A stretch of DNA of 64,000 bases from Bacteroidales bacterium (lineage in GTDB: Bacteria; Bacteroidota; Bacteroidia; Bacteroidales; P3), in contig JAFXAA010000027.1 of the NCBI GenBank assembly GCA_017522105.1, positions 50,096-114,095 of the forward strand. The letters run 5' to 3'. Position 1 is the first letter of the stretch. Every line of letters begins with the position of its first letter. The notes under the pieces were generated by a model. That model was not told where the DNA came from. It saw only the letters and a program-made list of their open reading frames with translations, and ran no database searches. The translations under genes were made by a program, and so were the position numbers. Positions 37,975 through 44,490 of the stretch are shown here, piece after piece.

Positions 37975-38085
37975 AGGCGACTATTCTCGCGGCAAAGGAA
38001 TGTTCGTGTAACGAAATTACAATAGACATGTAAGGAAAAGAAAAAATAGACAATAACATAATCAGCGATTGTGCTTATAATGTGC

Positions 38086-38216
38086 GGCTCGAATTCTGGA
38101 CAAATTCTTGCACTATTCAGCAGAAAGCAGATCTCTCACGGCATCCGTGAGCTTTCTTGTTTGAATAGTAGGTAGTCCAGAACCTCGAGCCCGACAAAAA
38201 GCTCGCGGTTTTTTTT
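38086..38216 (+). ncRNA. Structured RNA candidate, copy 1, ending in a U-run next to the HTH start codon
   Basis: The fold seen by eye is a rod. Closing stem 38086-38092 with 38185-38191; second stem TTCTGGAC (38094-38101) with GTCCAGAA (38175-38182); internal loop (AAATTCTTGCA opposite TAGGTA); stem CTATTCA (38113-38119) with TGAATAG (38162-38168); GAAAG with CTTTC; and a terminal hairpin CTCACGG-CATC... closing at 38151. A GC-rich hairpin (38183-38208) followed by eight T overlaps the closing stem, so the two are mutually exclusive. TATAAT at 38076-38081 may be promoter-like. The same stem-loop plan recurs at 43871-44025. I see no match to a named Rfam family that I can defend. Confidence 0.5.
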
Positions 38217-38453
38217 ATGCAAATACATATCGGACAGACAATCAGGGAGGAACTACGGCGGCAGGGCCACACCAACGAGTGGCTGGCCGACCGCATCCAT
38301 GTGCATCCGCGTACCGTGCAGAAGATTTTCGCCAAGCCCACCATCGACACCCGGCAGCTGCTGGCCATAAGCCTGGCTATGGGAGTGGACTTCTTCGGCC
38401 TGTACTCACAGTGTCTGAAAGACAATCAGTGTCTGTCGGAAAGGCCACAGTAG
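38217..38453 (+). CDS. Small helix-turn-helix (XRE-like) protein
   Basis: 78-residue putative DNA-binding protein. The HTH core (about 4-60: IGQTIREELRRQGHTNEWLADRIHVHPRTVQKIFAKPTIDTRQLL) resembles XRE/Cro folds of small autonomous regulators. The ATG immediately follows the eight-T run of the structured RNA, leaving no room for a separate ribosome-binding site. Its expression is therefore likely to depend on read-through of that RNA. The targets are unknown. It is followed by a long perfect hairpin (38476-38510). Confidence 0.7.
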   Translation: MQIHIGQTIREELRRQGHTNEWLADRIHVHPRTVQKIFAKPTIDTRQLLAISLAMGVDFFGLYSQCLKDNQCLSERPQ

Positions 38454-38475
38454 ATGATAGCGAGAATAATGCGGG

Positions 38476-38510
38476 ACGCCCGATGTGGGCATGGCGCCCA
38501 TATCGGGCGT
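38476..38510. other. Long GC-rich hairpin after the HTH gene
   Basis: ACGCCCGATGTGGGC pairs with GCCCATATCGGGCGT across a 5-nt loop (one G-T pair). No T-run follows. It could stabilise the mRNA end or be an operator. Confidence 0.6.
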
Positions 38511-38616
38511 GGAAAGTATGGGTGGGTAACAGTATCTTTGCACCGTGATACGGCACTCACAGGAGAGGTGCTAAAGGCATGGAAATATAGATGATAAAGA
38601 TTAACCCCTAAATAAA

Positions 38617-40332
38617 ATGTTTATGAAAAAGAAGTACTTGTTAGAAAATCTTGTTTTTGCTGTAGCCATGATGCTGCAGTTGAACGCCCACGCACAGAGC
38701 TATGATTTCTCTGCTGTCGCCCCATCGGGCCAGACGCTTTATTACGCCATCTATGACGAGAGCAGTGTCTTGGTTGTTGGGCAAACCGACGTTGAGCTCG
38801 GGGATAACTACTCCCCGGCTTACAGTGTCTCTCAAATGGCTGGCAACCTAATCATCCCATCAACCGTGTCCTACGGTGGAAACACGTATACTGTTATCGC
38901 AATTTGGACACGAGCCTTCTCTAATTGCACCGGACTTACTTCTGTATCGATACCCAGTTCGATTCGACTTATTGGTCCTTATGCCTTTTATTCCTGTGAT
39001 GGTCTATCCGGCACCCTCACCATACCTGCCAACGAAACTTATTATATGAGCATTTATAAGGGTGCTTTTGCCTCTTGTATGGGGTTGACATCCCTCGTCA
39101 TCAGTGAGGATGCCTACTGCACCATTGAAGAAAATGCATTTCAGTATTGCACTAATCTTGCCTCCGTTACCATCCCGGCTTCTGTTACGCAGATTGGAAA
39201 TGGTGCCTTCTACTATTGTAATCAATTGAATGCGGTCTACTACACAGGCAGTCTGGAGCAGTGGTGCGGGATTACATTTGCAGACAGATGGGCGAATCCT
39301 TTATACTACGCGAATAATCTATACATCAACAATACTCTTCTCACCGACTTGGTTATTCCCAACAGTGTGACTCAGATTGGCGACTACATTTTTGCTGGTG
39401 CCGAATGTCTGACATCGTTGACAATGCACAATGCTGTCACCTCTGTTGGAGAATCTGCTTTCTATAGTTGCACGGGACTTACGTCATTGTCCATCCCCAA
39501 TTCTGTCACCTCAATTGGGAGTTCTGCCTTCAGCGGATGCACAGGGTTGTGTTATGTCACAATACCCTCCTCTGTCAGGTTCGTAGGCTTATTCTCATTT
39601 TATGGAGTGAAGCTTGTTGTGGATAATAGTGGAGCAGCAGGGAGTAGTTGTGGGGCAGATATGATATCATATGGCGACGCATATATTGACGACTATTTAA
39701 TTTATGAGGATGCTACTATGTCCAGTCTTATTGGTTGCTGTAAATCGGCTGAAGGTGAAATTGTCATACCATCAACAGTTAATTCAATATCTGAAAAATG
39801 CTTTGTGGACTGCAATGGAATAACTTCTGTCACAATCCCCAACACTGTTACTCGTATAGAAAATGAAACCTTTAAAGGCTGTTCAAACCTCTCCTCTGTC
39901 ACAATAGGAAGATCTGTCTCTATCATCGGAGATGATGCCTTCCGGTTATGCTTTAATTTGGCTGAAATACATTCGTTGAACCCTGTAGCACCCACTTTGG
40001 GGACGAATGTTTTCAATGGTGTTCACGATACAATCCCTGTGTATATTCCCTGTGGCAGTTCAATGGTTTATTATGGACGTTGGCAGTATTTCTACAACTT
40101 CATAGAGGATTGCAATGGCATAGACGATGTCAATATGGATGGCGTGAAGGTGTACGTGCGTGGTGGAGAGATTGTGGTCGAGGGTTGCAATGGAGAAGAT
40201 GTGAAGGTGTTTGACATGAAGGGGCGCGAAGTGTACTGTGGGCACGCAGAGGGGGCGATACATGTGAGCGACTTGGGCGTGTATATGGTGAAGGTGGGCG
40301 ACAGACCCGCGCATAAGGTTGTGGTGATGTAG
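38617..40332 (+). CDS. BspA-like leucine-rich repeat surface protein
   Basis: 571 residues with a signal peptide (MKKKYLLENLVFAVAMMLQL...AQS; the second ATG at 38623 is equally possible). At least seven LRR_5 units follow, such as AFSNCTGLTSVSIPSSIRLI, AFYSCTGLTSLSIPNSVTSI and AFSGCTGLCYVTIPSSV. The C-terminal tail (KVFDMKGREVYCGHAEGAIH...GVYMVKVGDRPAHKVVVM) resembles the T9SS sorting domain and that of the gene at 34433. BspA-like proteins mediate adhesion and host or co-aggregation interactions. Codons and base content are clearly more AT-rich than in the flanking genes, suggesting relaxed composition or transfer. A TATCTTTG box lies at 38533-38540. Confidence 0.85.
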   Translation: MFMKKKYLLENLVFAVAMMLQLNAHAQSYDFSAVAPSGQTLYYAIYDESSVLVVGQTDVELGDNYSPAYSVSQMAGNLIIPSTVSYGGNTYTVIAIWTRAFSNCTGLTSVSIPSSIRLIGPYAFYSCDGLSGTLTIPANETYYMSIYKGAFASCMGLTSLVISEDAYCTIEENAFQYCTNLASVTIPASVTQIGNGAFYYCNQLNAVYYTGSLEQWCGITFADRWANPLYYANNLYINNTLLTDLVIPNSVTQIGDYIFAGAECLTSLTMHNAVTSVGESAFYSCTGLTSLSIPNSVTSIGSSAFSGCTGLCYVTIPSSVRFVGLFSFYGVKLVVDNSGAAGSSCGADMISYGDAYIDDYLIYEDATMSSLIGCCKSAEGEIVIPSTVNSISEKCFVDCNGITSVTIPNTVTRIENETFKGCSNLSSVTIGRSVSIIGDDAFRLCFNLAEIHSLNPVAPTLGTNVFNGVHDTIPVYIPCGSSMVYYGRWQYFYNFIEDCNGIDDVNMDGVKVYVRGGEIVVEGCNGEDVKVFDMKGREVYCGHAEGAIHVSDLGVYMVKVGDRPAHKVVVM

Positions 40333-40431
40333 AATTCACGTGCCTTTTATATGGCTCAGTACAGCGGTGGGCCCTTTGTGGCCCGCCGCTTGTTGTATAC
40401 ATGGCATGGTAGTGTGAAGCAACAATAAATT

Positions 40432-40461
40432 TTGCCGTGTCGGGAAAAAGTTGTACTTTTG
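40432..40461 (+). promoter_or_regulatory. Bacteroidetes-type promoter of cstA
   Basis: TTG (40432-40434), 19-nt spacer, TACTTTTG (40454-40461), then ATG at 40484. Confidence 0.75.
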
Positions 40462-40483
40462 CAGCCCGAAAAACGGCAAAGTT

Positions 40484-41926
40484 ATGATTACTTTTATCAT
40501 CTCGGTTGTGTTGCTGGTACTGGGCTACTGGCTTTACTCTAAGGTTATTGAACGTGTTATCGGCGTGGACCCCAAGCGCGTGACGCCCGCCGTGGCGCAT
40601 CCCGACGGGGTGGACTATGTGCCCATGAAGCCGTGGCGCGTGTTCCTCATCCAGTTCCTCAACATCGCAGGCGTGGGGCCCATCTGCGGCGCCATCATGG
40701 GTGCCCAGTTCGGCACCGCCTCGTTCCTGTGGATTGTCTTCGGCTGCATCTTCGCCGGTGCGGTGCACGACTTCATCAGCGGCTTCATCTCCATCCGTAT
40801 GGACGGCGCCTCGCTGCCCGAGATACACGGCAAGTACCTCGGCAACGGCATGAAACAGTTCATGCGCGGCTTCACGGTGCTGCTGATGATCCTGGTGGGT
40901 GCCGTCTTCGTGAACACGCCCGCCGTGCTGCTCAACCAGAACTTCACGCCCGACTGGAACATCTTTATCTGGGTGGGCATCATCTTCGCCTACTATCTGC
41001 TGGCCACCCTGCTGCCTATCGACAAGGTGATCGGCAAGATATACCCCATCTTCGGCATCCTGCTGCTGGCTATGGCCGTGGCCATCGTTGTGGCCTTTGT
41101 GGTCTACCGGGTGCCGGTGCCAGAGGTGTGGGACGGCCTGGAAAACCGCCACCCCAAGGCCGCCAGCAACCCCATCTTCCCCATGATGTTCATCAGCATC
41201 GCTTGCGGCGCCATCAGCGGCTTTCACGCCACGCAGAGCCCCCTCATGGCGCGCTGCATGGTCAACGAGAAGCAGGCCCGCCCTATCTTCTACGGCGCCA
41301 TGATCACCGAAGGCGTCGTGGCCCTCATCTGGGCGGCTGCCGCCACCTACTTCTTCCACGACAAGCCTGAGCTCTGCATCGGCAAGAGCGGCAACGACAT
41401 GGTGGGCGTCATCGCCAACGAGTGGTTTCCCAAGGTCATCGCCGTCATCTGCATCCTCGGCGTCATCAGCGCCGCCGTTACCAGCGGCGACACCGCCCTG
41501 CGGTCGGCACGCCTCATCGTGGCCGACTTCATGCATGTGGACCAGAAGCCCATACCCAAGCGTCTGCTGGTGGCCCTGCCGGTCTTCGTGCTGGCCGCCT
41601 CACTGCTCATCTTCTCGCTGGCCGACGCCGATGGCTTCCAGGTCATCTGGCGCTACTTCTCGTGGGCCAACCAGTTCCTGTCGATGGTCACACTGTGGGC
41701 CATCACGGTGTTCCTTTCAAGGCATCTGCCCGGCAAGGGGTGGTATTGGATTACCCTTATCCCCGCACTCTTCATGAGCATGGTGACCATCAGCTTCCTG
41801 CTGGTGGCCGAAAAGGAGGGCCTCGGCAGCGTCCTGCCCCGCACCGCCGGCTACTGCATCGCCGCCGTCATCACCGCCGCCCTCGGTGTGCTGTTCTTCG
41901 TCAAAAGAAAGAAGACAGAACAATAA
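40484..41926 (+). CDS. cstA: Carbon starvation CstA-family transporter
   Basis: Polytopic inner-membrane protein of 480 residues, family known for peptide or pyruvate uptake under starvation. The start at 40484 (MITFIISVVLLVLGYWLY) is chosen because an earlier in-frame ATG overlaps the -7 box. Family features include AGVGPICGAIMGAQFG (about 60-75), the HDFISGFISIRMDG motif, FHATQSPLMARCMVNEKQ and AAVTSGDTALRSARL. The length is shorter than E. coli CstA (about 700) but normal for the short Bacteroidetes form. It has its own promoter. Confidence 0.93.
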   Translation: MITFIISVVLLVLGYWLYSKVIERVIGVDPKRVTPAVAHPDGVDYVPMKPWRVFLIQFLNIAGVGPICGAIMGAQFGTASFLWIVFGCIFAGAVHDFISGFISIRMDGASLPEIHGKYLGNGMKQFMRGFTVLLMILVGAVFVNTPAVLLNQNFTPDWNIFIWVGIIFAYYLLATLLPIDKVIGKIYPIFGILLLAMAVAIVVAFVVYRVPVPEVWDGLENRHPKAASNPIFPMMFISIACGAISGFHATQSPLMARCMVNEKQARPIFYGAMITEGVVALIWAAAATYFFHDKPELCIGKSGNDMVGVIANEWFPKVIAVICILGVISAAVTSGDTALRSARLIVADFMHVDQKPIPKRLLVALPVFVLAASLLIFSLADADGFQVIWRYFSWANQFLSMVTLWAITVFLSRHLPGKGWYWITLIPALFMSMVTISFLLVAEKEGLGSVLPRTAGYCIAAVITAALGVLFFVKRKKTEQ

Positions 41927-41963
41927 ATCAACCAGTTCGACAATATATCTACGTTAATAGAAA

Positions 41964-42296
41964 ATGCACAACGATAAACATATCTGCCCCGTGTGCGGAT
42001 TCGACGGGTTAACGGAGGAGCCTCACGATAGTTACGGATGCACCAGTTTTGAAATATGCCCCTGCTGCGGATTTGAATTTGGATACGACGATGAAGACGG
42101 CGGATGGAGCTATGAAGAGTGGCGCAAGGCATGGATTGCCGCAGGATTTCCTTGGATGTACCATGACAACGATAAACCCGCCACATGGAACCGCGACACA
42201 ATGATGAAGCAGGCGGAAAATATACGGCTCACCACCGATAAACCACGCTACGTAGCGGATTCAAAAAAGCCCCGTTCTTTTGTACCGAAACAATAA
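41964..42296 (+). CDS. Cysteine-rich CPCC-family protein
   Basis: 110-residue cytoplasmic protein with ICPVCGFDGL (about 7-16) and the diagnostic CPCCGFEFGYDDE (about 33-45), i.e. two CxxC knuckles that should bind zinc. The pattern WRKAWIAAGFPWMY is conserved in the CPCC family (PF14206-like). Such small proteins are common accessory genes, often in toxin- or immunity-like contexts, but no function is established. It lies 37 bp after cstA. Confidence 0.8.
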   Translation: MHNDKHICPVCGFDGLTEEPHDSYGCTSFEICPCCGFEFGYDDEDGGWSYEEWRKAWIAAGFPWMYHDNDKPATWNRDTMMKQAENIRLTTDKPRYVADSKKPRSFVPKQ

Positions 42297-42312
42297 AATA
42301 ATAAAAAACACG

Positions 42313-42341
42313 TTGCTATTACAGAAAAAGTTGTATCTTTG
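42313..42341 (+). promoter_or_regulatory. Promoter before the YD-repeat-like gene
   Basis: TTG (42313-42315), 18-nt spacer, TATCTTTG (42334-42341), then ATG at 42355 or 42364. Confidence 0.65.
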
Positions 42342-42363
42342 CACTTTGAAAACAATGACAGAA

Positions 42364-43191
42364 ATGAAGAAAAATATCGCTCTCATTTTCGCCCTGCTCG
42401 TTGTGGGCACGGCATTTGCAGGCCCCAAGCCCCGCAAGAACTCGCGTACCGAAATGGGCATCCACGGCAACGCAATCTATGTGATTGAGTACACCTACAA
42501 CCTCCGTGGTGGTCGCGACGGTGGCCGTCAGTTGATATGCATCGACAGCATCACCTTCGACAAGCGCGGCAACTTCGCCGACAAGTTCCGCACCAAGGCC
42601 GACGACTACACGTGGTACTCGTATTTCTTCGACGTCAACGGCTACAGCCTCGGCTGGAACGAATACAATCGCGAGAAGATGCTCACCGGCCGCACCGCCT
42701 ACCTCAACGACCGCGACGGCAACCGCATAGAGCGCACGGTGTTCCTCGGCAACCAGATGACCAAGAAGGAGAGCAGCACCTTCAAGAACGGCCTCAAGGT
42801 CGAGGAGCAGAGCTTCGATGAGACTGGCGAGATGACCGAGAAGCGCACCTACAAGTACGACCAGAAGGGCAACTGCACTGAGATGGAGTTCTACAACCGT
42901 GACGGCGACCTCATGCAGCACTACCTCTACAAATACGATGCCCGCGGCAACCGCATCGAGTGGCGCTTCTACGACGCCGACGAGTTCCTCTCGGCCCTCA
43001 CCACCTACTACTACGACGACCACGACAACCTGATTGAGGTCAGCTCGTTCAACTACGACGAGCACCTCAACTGGAAGCACAGCTACGTCTACGAGTACGA
43101 CGAAGACGACAACTGGGTCCGCCAGACCATCTACCGCAACAACGTACCCTACCAGGTCATCGAGCGCGAGATCGCCTTTCCGGCGAACTGA
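42364..43191 (+). CDS. Secreted YD-repeat-like protein
   Basis: Exported protein of about 275 residues starting MKKNIALIFALLVVGTAFAG. The mature part has tandem beta-hairpin units of about 21 residues such as YKYDQKGNCTEMEFYNRDG, YKYDARGNRIEWRFYDADE and YEYDEDDNWVRQTIYRNN, the hallmark of RHS/YD-type repeats. It lacks the toxin core seen in true RHS proteins. It probably sits in the periplasm or on the surface. Its function is unknown. It has its own promoter. Confidence 0.75.
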   Translation: MKKNIALIFALLVVGTAFAGPKPRKNSRTEMGIHGNAIYVIEYTYNLRGGRDGGRQLICIDSITFDKRGNFADKFRTKADDYTWYSYFFDVNGYSLGWNEYNREKMLTGRTAYLNDRDGNRIERTVFLGNQMTKKESSTFKNGLKVEEQSFDETGEMTEKRTYKYDQKGNCTEMEFYNRDGDLMQHYLYKYDARGNRIEWRFYDADEFLSALTTYYYDDHDNLIEVSSFNYDEHLNWKHSYVYEYDEDDNWVRQTIYRNNVPYQVIEREIAFPAN

Positions 43192-43203
43192 TAATTGAAT
43201 ATC

Positions 43204-43467
43204 ATGCCGCAAATAAGCGACTTCTACGGGATAGTCATTTTCATGAACTTTAGCGACCATATGCCGCCGCATTTTCATGCATGGTACAATCACGGAGAAT
43301 ATAAAATATCTGTAGATATCAAGAGCGGCCTGGTCAAAGGAAGGATGCCGGGACGTGCTGTACGAATGATACTTGAGTGGCTCGATTTACATCGTGACGA
43401 ATTGCTTGCCTGCTGGGAGCAAACCAAGAACAAACAGCATCCAGACAAGATAGCTCCGTTACAGTAA
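43204..43467 (+). CDS. DUF4160 family protein
   Basis: 87-residue protein beginning MPQISDFYGIVIFMNFSDH. The DUF4160 signature HMPPHFHAWYNHGEYKISVD lies near residues 19-38, followed by GRAVRMILEWLDLHRDELLACW. It is 3 bp before the DUF2442 gene. DUF4160-DUF2442 pairs recur in bacteria and are suspected to be toxin-antitoxin-like; no proof is visible here. Confidence 0.85.
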   Translation: MPQISDFYGIVIFMNFSDHMPPHFHAWYNHGEYKISVDIKSGLVKGRMPGRAVRMILEWLDLHRDELLACWEQTKNKQHPDKIAPLQ

Positions 43468-43470
43468 AAG

Positions 43471-43776
43471 ATGGATGACTTTTTAGAAATAACAAAGGCC
43501 GAATATCTCGGCGACTATCGCCTCCGCCTGTGGTTCAATAATGGTGAGGTGCGAGAAGCCGACCTTGCCGACAAATTGGACGGTGAGGCATTCCTGCCTT
43601 TGCATGACAAGGAGTTTTTCCAGCGCTTTAGCATTCCCTTCAACACCATCGAATGGGGGAATGGCGCTGATTTTGCCCCCGAATATCTATACGAACACAG
43701 CATCCGTCCTTACGACACCGACGAAGAAACATCTCTACCCTCCGCAGCTGAAGAACCTGCGGAGTATGGAAAATAA
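43471..43776 (+). CDS. DUF2442 family protein
   Basis: 101-residue protein. The DUF2442 core (about 1-78) shows YLGDYRLRLWFNNGEVREADLA, then FFQRFSIPFNTIEWGNGADFAPEYLYE. The C-terminal 20 residues are acidic and probably disordered. It is the second member of the DUF4160-DUF2442 pair, with only 3 bp between genes, so they are co-transcribed. Role unproven; the pair is typical of accessory regions. Confidence 0.85.
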   Translation: MDDFLEITKAEYLGDYRLRLWFNNGEVREADLADKLDGEAFLPLHDKEFFQRFSIPFNTIEWGNGADFAPEYLYEHSIRPYDTDEETSLPSAAEEPAEYGK

Positions 43777-43870
43777 TAAACCCATGTTTAACCAAATATG
43801 ATGCCAATGAAGCATAGCGCATAGATTAATATGCACGTCATAGAATAGGAAAAAGCGAAGTAGCTTATCT

Positions 43871-44025
43871 GGTATTCCTGAACTTCGACAACTCATGAAT
43901 ACATACCTAGATAAAAGCGACCGAGCCGCGCATTCAGCGTGGAATTGTTCGTAATAGTTGGGTATGTATAGGTAGTCGAAGACCTGGGAATACCAATGAA
44001 AGCGAAGGCTCCACGCTCTTTTTAT
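43871..44025 (+). ncRNA. Structured RNA candidate, copy 2
   Basis: The same plan as the RNA at 38086. Closing stem GGTATTCC (43871-43878) with GGAATACC (43987-43994); second stem CTTCGAC (43883-43889) with GTCGAAG (43975-43981); internal loop (AACTCATGA opposite AGGTA); a 9-bp stem ATACATACC (43899-43907) with GGTATGTAT (43961-43969); and a terminal hairpin CCGCGC-ATTCA-GCGTGG (43926-43942). A weak hairpin and TTTTT (about 44018-44023) end it. Shared with copy 1: the UAGGUAGUC strand of the loop, the AAnUC opposite strand, and a T-run followed by ATGTGCA/ATGCA. Confidence 0.5.
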
Positions 44026-44109
44026 GTGCATTCTTCATCGGAGCCGCAATATCATGTTATTAAAAACAAAACCGATGGGCCGATGGTATATAACGGGCAA
44101 CAAATAAAA

Positions 44110-44490
44110 ATGAAAAAAATAATGATTGTTTTAGGTATTGTGGCAGCATTTTTAACAGTAACTGCATTTATCATCCCGGAGAAGACAAATGACACACCTC
44201 AACCGGGTGGTTCCTGCAAAACTGTAGGAAATTGTACTGTTGAATTACTCAGAGTCAAAGATGGTTATTATGCAGTACATACACTAAATAGAAATTCTTA
44301 CCCTGTTACAGTATCATGGAAAGCCTATGGTTATGTCAGCGACCGACCAGGCCGAATATTGGTGGGAAGCGGTCAAATTTATTCTTCTCCGGCAAAAGGT
44401 AGTGGAAATACACCAACAGGTAAGGCACACTTTTCTACTACAGCAACAAATGTGCATTTAGATGAAGTTAATGTTTCACGGTGTGAATAA
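44110..44490 (+). CDS. Small exported protein of unknown function
   Basis: 126 residues from the ATG at 44110, which starts a hydrophobic signal or anchor (MKKIMIVLGIVAAFLTVTAFII). The mature part (GSCKTVGNCTVELLRVKDGY, YPVTVSWKAYGYVSDRPGRI) looks like a small all-beta domain with two or three cysteines. I do not recognise it. An open frame upstream covers the structured RNA but has no credible start. AT-rich compared with neighbours. Followed by a strong symmetric terminator. Confidence 0.65.
   Translation: MKKIMIVLGIVAAFLTVTAFIIPEKTNDTPQPGGSCKTVGNCTVELLRVKDGYYAVHTLNRNSYPVTVSWKAYGYVSDRPGRILVGSGQIYSSPAKGSGNTPTGKAHFSTTATNVHLDEVNVSRCE

Follow-up and report, generated by a model that had tools for sequence, protein, structure and literature searches.

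A family of rod-forming leader RNAs in Bacteroidia that probably act as bistable transcription attenuators

A 64,000-nucleotide (nt) stretch from a Bacteroidales bacterium (GCA_017522105.1, contig JAFXAA010000027.1, positions 50,096 to 114,095), here called the window, carries two structured RNAs on its forward strand, RNA1 (38081-38216) and RNA2 (43869-44024). They belong to a large and apparently nameless RNA family of gut and environmental Bacteroidia. Comparison of its members suggests that these are probably cis-acting 5′ leaders that work as bistable transcription attenuators, and that the leader would probably switch many genes for exported proteins, as well as other accessory genes, on and off.

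Both RNAs are present where an earlier note on this DNA had placed them and, as it had proposed, they fold into the same rod (z −5.85 for RNA1 and −5.29 for RNA2; 0 of 200 dinucleotide shuffles equalled the fold of either). The rod of RNA1 spans 38086-38191 and consists of the helices P1 (38086-38092/38185-38191), P2 (38094-38101/38175-38182) and P3 (38113-38119/38162-38168) and an apical helix of the arms A5 (38120-38141) and A3 (38145-38161). That of RNA2 spans 43870-43995, with P1 at 43870-43878/43987-43995, P2 at 43883-43889/43975-43981, P3 at 43900-43907/43961-43968, A5 at 43908-43931 and A3 at 43937-43960. The element extends beyond the earlier drawing, which left out an upstream strand or hairpin U (38060-38085, the AGCGATTGTGCT region, in RNA1; 43850-43869, AAAAAGCGAAGTAGCTTATC, in RNA2) and a strand T preceding the U-run. 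A pattern of the letters common to both RNAs had two matches in the window against a shuffle expectation of 0.00, the pattern being derived from these same two. An unfiltered covariance model scan of the window gave 128.7 and 64.6 bits for the two RNAs, which are rows of the scanning model and score high by construction; the next match, on the opposite strand, had an E-value (E) of 0.45.

The family was traced at several taxonomic levels. A blastn search with 38060-38460, comprising RNA1 and the helix-turn-helix gene behind it, found matches in 30 of 61 genomes (own genome included), many of them to the RNA part alone and others to the gene part alone, and several genomes had more than one. 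The covariance model search suggested by the earlier note was carried out with multi-copy models, R1 from a first alignment of 29 copies including both window RNAs and the wider R2 from 102 copies, and it returned many Bacteroidales matches with strong covariation. Within the genus, R1 matched 57 of 59 genomes (own included); across the order it matched 58 of 198 genomes, representing 49 of 151 genera, and in a phylum sample 21 of 296 genomes. These 21 are the own genome, a second from its order and 19 from other orders of the class; every genome listed for that sample belongs to the class, and the sample has no bearing on other classes. At E 1e-4, R2 reached 72 of 198 genomes of the order, which represent 60 of the 151 genera sampled. 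Over the window its matches were RNA1 and RNA2 only, and at E 0.01 it found 21 places in the own 2.3-Mb genome, so that the word paralogous, used earlier of the two RNAs, is a fair one. Among the matches listed, the carriers include Candidatus Symbiothrix dinenymphae, Candidatus Azobacteroides sp., Dysgonomonas sp. 520, Paludibacter sp., an uncultured Rikenella sp. and metagenome-assembled genomes (MAGs) of Prevotellaceae. Copies also occur on plasmid records, with 52.0 bits in Bacteroides ovatus and 37.3 bits in Parabacteroides distasonis, and the gene behind these is annotated as 'dihydrofolate reductase family protein'. Same-strand copies are found paired, close together at L089:1280-1639 (−) and L256:4462-4891 (+) and about 1.5 kb apart at L138:1056-2839 (+). 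A Bacteroidales-type element was seen in a MAG contig labelled Lachnospiraceae (L219), which is most likely misbinned. Many of the counts below come from a set of 151 family elements.

The RNAs had earlier been left without a named class, and the comparison with Rfam agrees with this. At gathering score Rfam 15 gave no match for RNA1 or RNA2; at E of at most 1 there was none for RNA2, and for RNA1 only a sub-threshold chance match to mir-208 on the opposite strand. Forty family loci, RNA2 being one, were likewise free of Rfam matches within the element, 6S RNA included (gathering score in part, E 0.1 in part); the matches at these loci were DUF805 RNA and rteR, both outside the element. DUF805 RNA was rejected as the identity of the element since it lies outside the element bounds. 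At two of 20 loci this RNA (RF03081) occurs just 3′ of the element (L086:1774-1839 (+), L099:1388-1456 (−)), giving two structured leader RNAs in tandem. In the abstracts and passages of open-access papers no description of an equivalent RNA was found. Two palindromes from Bacteroidetes, the candidates HMP_4078 and HMP2_4205, which measure 109 and 132 bp (PMC8040213), and the GUCCY-hairpin, also found in Bacteroidetes (PMC2864571), might overlap with the family.

Compensatory change, which had been read from two sequences in favour of a genuine RNA family, is evident throughout the rod. RNAalifold on 29 copies gave 31 pairs, 23 of them with two-sided changes. In 76 copies two-sided changes were found in 30 of the 31 pairs, with 659 two-sided cells; 96.9% of the cells were paired, compared to 33-48% for slid structures, and 0 of 500 shuffles reached any of five measures. 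The 76-copy alignment was fitted to the model and is hence biased to structure. At paired positions of the 151 copies G-U combinations numbered 350 and A-C combinations 25, the G-U count being favoured by the models behind the alignments, which accept G-U more readily than A-C.

The apical arms of the rod have second partners. By eye, A3 is complementary to T just 5′ of the U-run, and A5 to U before P1. In an own-partner test on 150 of the 151 elements, where the alignment was used for strand placement only, duplex energies were calculated for each strand with the partner from its own element and, for contrast, with partners from other elements. The rod helices P1, P2, P3 and A5:A3 each favoured the own partner at p <1e-24. 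So did A3:T, by 5.72 kcal/mol (p 2.5e-26), and U:A5, by 3.70 kcal/mol (p 7.7e-24), whereas the control pairings U:A3, A5:T, A5:D, U:D and A3:D, where D is a strand 3′ of the U-run, showed no such preference in the same elements. With the foreign partners limited to the 8 nearest relatives, A3:T kept p 1.7e-15 and U:A5 p 5.8e-12, and U:A3 and A5:T remained null. The contrast with the control pairings is a stronger argument than the p-values. A T:D helix is weak family-wide (p 3.8e-4; 9.6e-4 against nearest relatives) and clear in some copies such as RNA2, where GGCTCC at 44007-44012 faces GGAGCC of D at 44040-44045.

In RNA1 the alternative terminator covers 38145-38216, with A3 paired to T at 38193-38208 and followed by eight T at 38209-38216; its duplex of −20.5 kcal/mol beats 98% of foreign partners. 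In RNA2 it covers 43936-44023, where AGCGTGGA (43936-43943) pairs with TCCACGCT (44010-44017) ahead of CTTTTT (44018-44023), and A3:T at −24.4 kcal/mol beats 99%. The U:A5 helix of RNA2 is fair, beating 82%. In 143 of the 151 copies T is followed by a U-run; a control stretch that lies 40-80 nt beyond has one in 35 copies. By sequence and covariation, the A3:T helix and the U-run have the make-up of an intrinsic terminator, and the rod, mutually exclusive with it, would be its antiterminator and has covariation support too. Folded alone, each half of the leader was more stable than its mononucleotide shuffles, at −19.0 kcal/mol for the left (shuffles −13.6) and −26.6 kcal/mol for the right (shuffles −15.5).

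We propose that the switch may work as follows. A leader of about 170-190 nt would be read in the same direction as the gene behind it. Its left half (U-P1-M5-P3-A5) could fold on itself through U:A5 and its right half (A3-P3′-M3-P1′-T) through A3:T, the latter together with the U-run serving as intrinsic terminator, at which transcription would end. Alternatively, the same strands would zip into the long rod and sequester A3 from T, which would prevent termination. The loops of the small hairpins M5 and M3 are the two P2 strands, and by kissing they might nucleate the passage from halves to rod. A protein, a ligand or the speed of the polymerase, acting on the left half, is a candidate trigger for holding the halves apart. 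Read-through, with the rod formed, is at somewhat under even chances the default state, because the apical hairpin can form once A3 is made.

The hairpins M5 and M3 bear on the conserved internal loop. The rod's internal loops hold or adjoin an AGGU/ACCU and a GAAAU/AUUUC couple, each of which is self-complementary and encloses one P2 strand, and each half can therefore display P2 in a hairpin loop. In RNA1, M5 (38091-38107) has GAATT and AATTC around CTGGACA, the 5′ strand of P2, and M3 (38170-38185) has AGGT and ACCT around AGTCCAGA, the 3′ strand. The right half folded alone forms A3:T with AGGU/ACCU inside in both RNAs; the left half forms M5 in RNA1 and only three M5 pairs in RNA2. The own-partner preference of M5 is modest (−0.31 kcal/mol, p 5.8e-8). 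The commonest sides of M3 are AGGTAG/AACCTC (68 of 151), and the 40 commonest combinations include the paired variants GGGTAT/TACCTC (8), GGGTTT/AACCTC (5) and AGGTAT/TACCTC (4) and two with GGC against GCC. The loop described earlier, AAnUCnUGnA opposite UAGGUA, holds on one side: GGU is invariant on the UAGGUA side, and the consensus of the other side is CAAUUUC, so that AAnUCnUGnA is no family feature. The best explanation of the conserved UAGGUA is that it contains the AGGU side of M3.

The position of the elements is that of gene leaders. In a first count, 64 of 68 elements shared their strand with the next downstream open reading frame (ORF) and 43 of 65 with the next upstream one. Flanks of 500 nt on each side were present for 119 elements; in 110 of these an ORF of at least 80 aa began on the element's strand no more than 400 nt downstream, and in 49 a divergent ORF began at most 400 nt upstream. 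The median gap from the T-run to the ATG was 62 nt. In the own genome each of the 21 copies had, by inspection and without a control, an ORF of at least 75 aa on its strand no more than 500 nt away. A TAnnTTTG promoter box, of the Bacteroidetes type, was detected 25-130 nt upstream of P1 in 97 of 148 elements, where mononucleotide shuffles predict 8.2; a control stretch had it in 14 of 136 and the reverse complement occurred 10 times. For the family, the element thus lies between promoter and gene on the same strand, the two window copies being without a detected box. With a promoter box, its own terminator and a very stable rod, the RNA might also be a stand-alone small RNA, 6S-like or antisense, next to which the gene is incidental. 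This is very unlikely, as the same-strand ORF is close by, no 6S RNA was matched in Rfam, and a second box between element and gene is at chance (7 of 129 against 7.2 expected, 85 of the same 129 having the upstream box).

Near the transcript start, mini-ORFs with at most one codon are enriched (65 of 145 against 31.5 expected), and the first ATG after the box opens at most 3 codons in 40 of 57 elements, where 20.2 of 60.6 are expected. Attenuation coupled to a ribosome on such a mini-ORF (AUG, 0-3 codons and stop) would account for this. It is nevertheless extremely improbable, and leader-peptide control was rejected as the general mechanism, since 44 of 101 boxed elements have no ATG there, including 9 of the 10 that lie outside the order. 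Upstream of RNA2 a possible 5-codon mini-ORF, ATGAAGCATAGCGCATAG, lies at 43807-43824 (+); RNA1 has ATGTAA at 38028-38033.

Several observations weigh against a bistable attenuator. The whole leader folds at −61.1 kcal/mol on average, 15.6 better than left and right halves summed, and the terminator fold would therefore be metastable and need kinetics or a factor. Kinship among the copies inflates the p-values, which assume independence, and the control U:A3 had a slight effect against shuffled partners (−0.74, p 7e-5). M3, being nearly invariant, showed no own-partner preference, although it did better than shuffled partners. A closing stem U:T (AAAAAGCG/CGCTTTTT), seen by eye in some subtypes, showed no own-partner preference either and is not part of the main model. 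Chance alone can place a small ORF on the same strand behind an element. Finally, no TAnnTTTG box was found upstream of RNA1 or RNA2, even with one mismatch, and U:A5 of RNA1 is weak, beating 45% of foreign partners; since it lacks both a nearby box and a strong U:A5, RNA1 may be decaying or be read from another promoter.

Near-identical elements precede unrelated genes. In 21 pairs, picked from a similarity list and by hand, the likeness stops in several cases at the T-run and near U: L123/L172 share 97% identity between −29 of P1 and +2 of the T-run, L127/L169 96% (−32 to +8), L117/L158 90% (−16 to +3) and L062/L063 91% (−26 to +5). It reaches further in L213/L217 (−90 to +69) and L224/L226 (−242 to 0). 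Over the element, RNA1 too shares 90% identity with L042, behind which lies a gene for a putative lipoprotein. Pairs of at least 90% identity made up 45 of 113 in one count and 53 of 105 in another, both inflated by places fetched twice. By these comparisons the module appears to move or recombine, possible routes being exchange of the gene behind an unchanged leader, gene conversion and leader mobility. L224, L225 and L226 are the starts of three contigs of one genome (G137), and more than 100 nt upstream of the promoter are common to these copies before different genes; this is a longer repeated module in that species. The rteR small RNA of Bacteroides conjugative elements lies near one copy (L252:39-121 (+)), and in the B. 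ovatus and P. distasonis records (L257, L258) the element stands beside primase, topoisomerase and RteC-domain genes, and because of these neighbours it probably travels on such conjugative elements.

These leaders of 90-97% identity before unrelated genes, the contigs beginning shortly before copies with common upstream text and the inverted repeats that the ends AAAAAGCG/CGCTTTTT form in some subtypes could point to a mobile or recombining DNA module, like a miniature inverted-repeat transposable element or a repetitive extragenic palindrome, whose hairpins serve DNA mobility and whose RNA structure is secondary. We consider this highly improbable given the excess of G-U over A-C, the fixed orientation to the gene and stems that diverge with compensation. 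A wider view of the attenuator, possible and in our opinion rather doubtful, would see a leader whose two halves each fold on themselves, are complementary to one another and come together through kissing loops, in an on/off cassette that spreads or recombines among unrelated genes throughout the class and puts about twenty accessory, often exported, proteins of a single bacterium under one signal. Integron attC sites, thought of on account of the diverse gene set, were set aside by description, as the copies are scattered and the letters differ.

The downstream genes are diverse and often encode exported proteins. Many of those behind the 21 copies of the own genome start as a lipoprotein or signal peptide (by inspection, without a control). 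A simple signal-peptide rule classed 72 of 127 downstream products as exported; among the other ORFs at these loci it did so for 94 of 431 (odds ratio 4.7, p 3.4e-13), a ratio likely too high since the background of ORFs of at least 200 aa in any frame includes some that are not genes; for downstream products of at least 200 aa the count was 49 of 83. Pfam searches of 120 of the 127 products gave 66 families, 25 of them listed, led by BspA-type leucine-rich repeat, TonB plug, carboxypeptidase-regulatory-like domain and Por_Secre_tail with 7 each. By inspection, 6 of the 10 copies outside the order (L244-L251, L253, L254) precede SusC-type-looking receptors and one an extracytoplasmic function-like sigma factor. 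A PLD/SNF2-helicase protein, MmeI-type methyltransferases and, behind RNA1 and by inspection other copies, helix-turn-helix proteins are also found. This diversity speaks against a riboswitch, in which a small molecule bound at the internal loops or the left half would drive the same terminator/antiterminator switch. Leader position, terminator and conserved internal-loop letters fit a riboswitch, which is unlikely all the same, for no common metabolism is apparent downstream and the conserved letters can be explained by M5 and M3 pairing.

The gene behind RNA1 (38217-38453, +) encodes a 78-aa helix-turn-helix protein (HTH_3), and its ATG adjoins the U-run. The U-run followed by AUG(U)GCA, noted earlier in both segments, is therefore correct as to the U-run, while the AUG of RNA1 is a start codon; in RNA2 the AUGUGCA faces an upstream TGCACGT (by eye). 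The earlier reading was right about a real family and overlooked the alternative fold and the leader position. Behind RNA2 lies a gene (44110-44490, +) for a product of 126 aa with an N-terminal hydrophobic stretch, exported by inspection and without a Pfam match. Right before its start codon, in the gene's leader (44070-44100), stands ACCGATGGGCCGATGGTATATAACGGGCAACAA; text much like it precedes the genes behind members L041 and L073, and L173 and L265 have similar protein starts (by eye). It is perhaps a second conserved leader motif. Directly upstream of RNA2, at 43204-43776, are DUF4160 and DUF2442 genes in tandem (Pfam), an arrangement that hints at a toxin-antitoxin-like pair. The sole Rfam match at gathering score in the window is a cobalamin riboswitch (RF00174) at 1759-1949 (−), with 111.6 bits.

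If our reading is true, a regulatory RNA class with about 21 copies in a single 2.3-Mb genome is without an Rfam model, and it would define a regulon of exported and accessory proteins, SusC-type receptors included, in gut and environmental Bacteroidia. It would be a natural case of an RNA with two competing structures, both legible from covariation, and the copy in the B. ovatus plasmid record would make the class testable in a tractable organism.

Known leaders that combine an intrinsic terminator with an antiterminator include eut/ANTAR and riboswitch leaders. Attenuation in the tetQ leader of CTnDOT in Bacteroides uses a short leader peptide and a hairpin; the mini-ORF described here is not universal. 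The large central bubble that is a feature of 6S RNA is absent from the family, which shares with 6S (RF00013) and 6S-flavo (RF01685) the long rod-shaped RNA. The earlier idea of a 6S-like RNA was rejected, as neither model matched the window copies or the 40 family loci, copies are many per genome (21 in the own genome) and the elements lie as leaders of genes with a terminator-like U-run. LoaP RNA is a UNCG hairpin, and UpxY is encoded by Bacteroidetes (PMC12691694); the leaders described there resemble ours in joining a hairpin to an intrinsic terminator, but the downstream Pfam tally, with one sugar transferase among 120 products, does not point to polyketide or polysaccharide operons. With intrinsic-terminator attenuators and antiterminator leaders in general, the family has in common the 5′ leader, the mutually exclusive terminator and antiterminator and the U-run. 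It differs from them in that no common downstream pathway was seen, that the terminator's 5′ arm sits inside the apex of the long rod, and that the two halves are complementary along most of their length.

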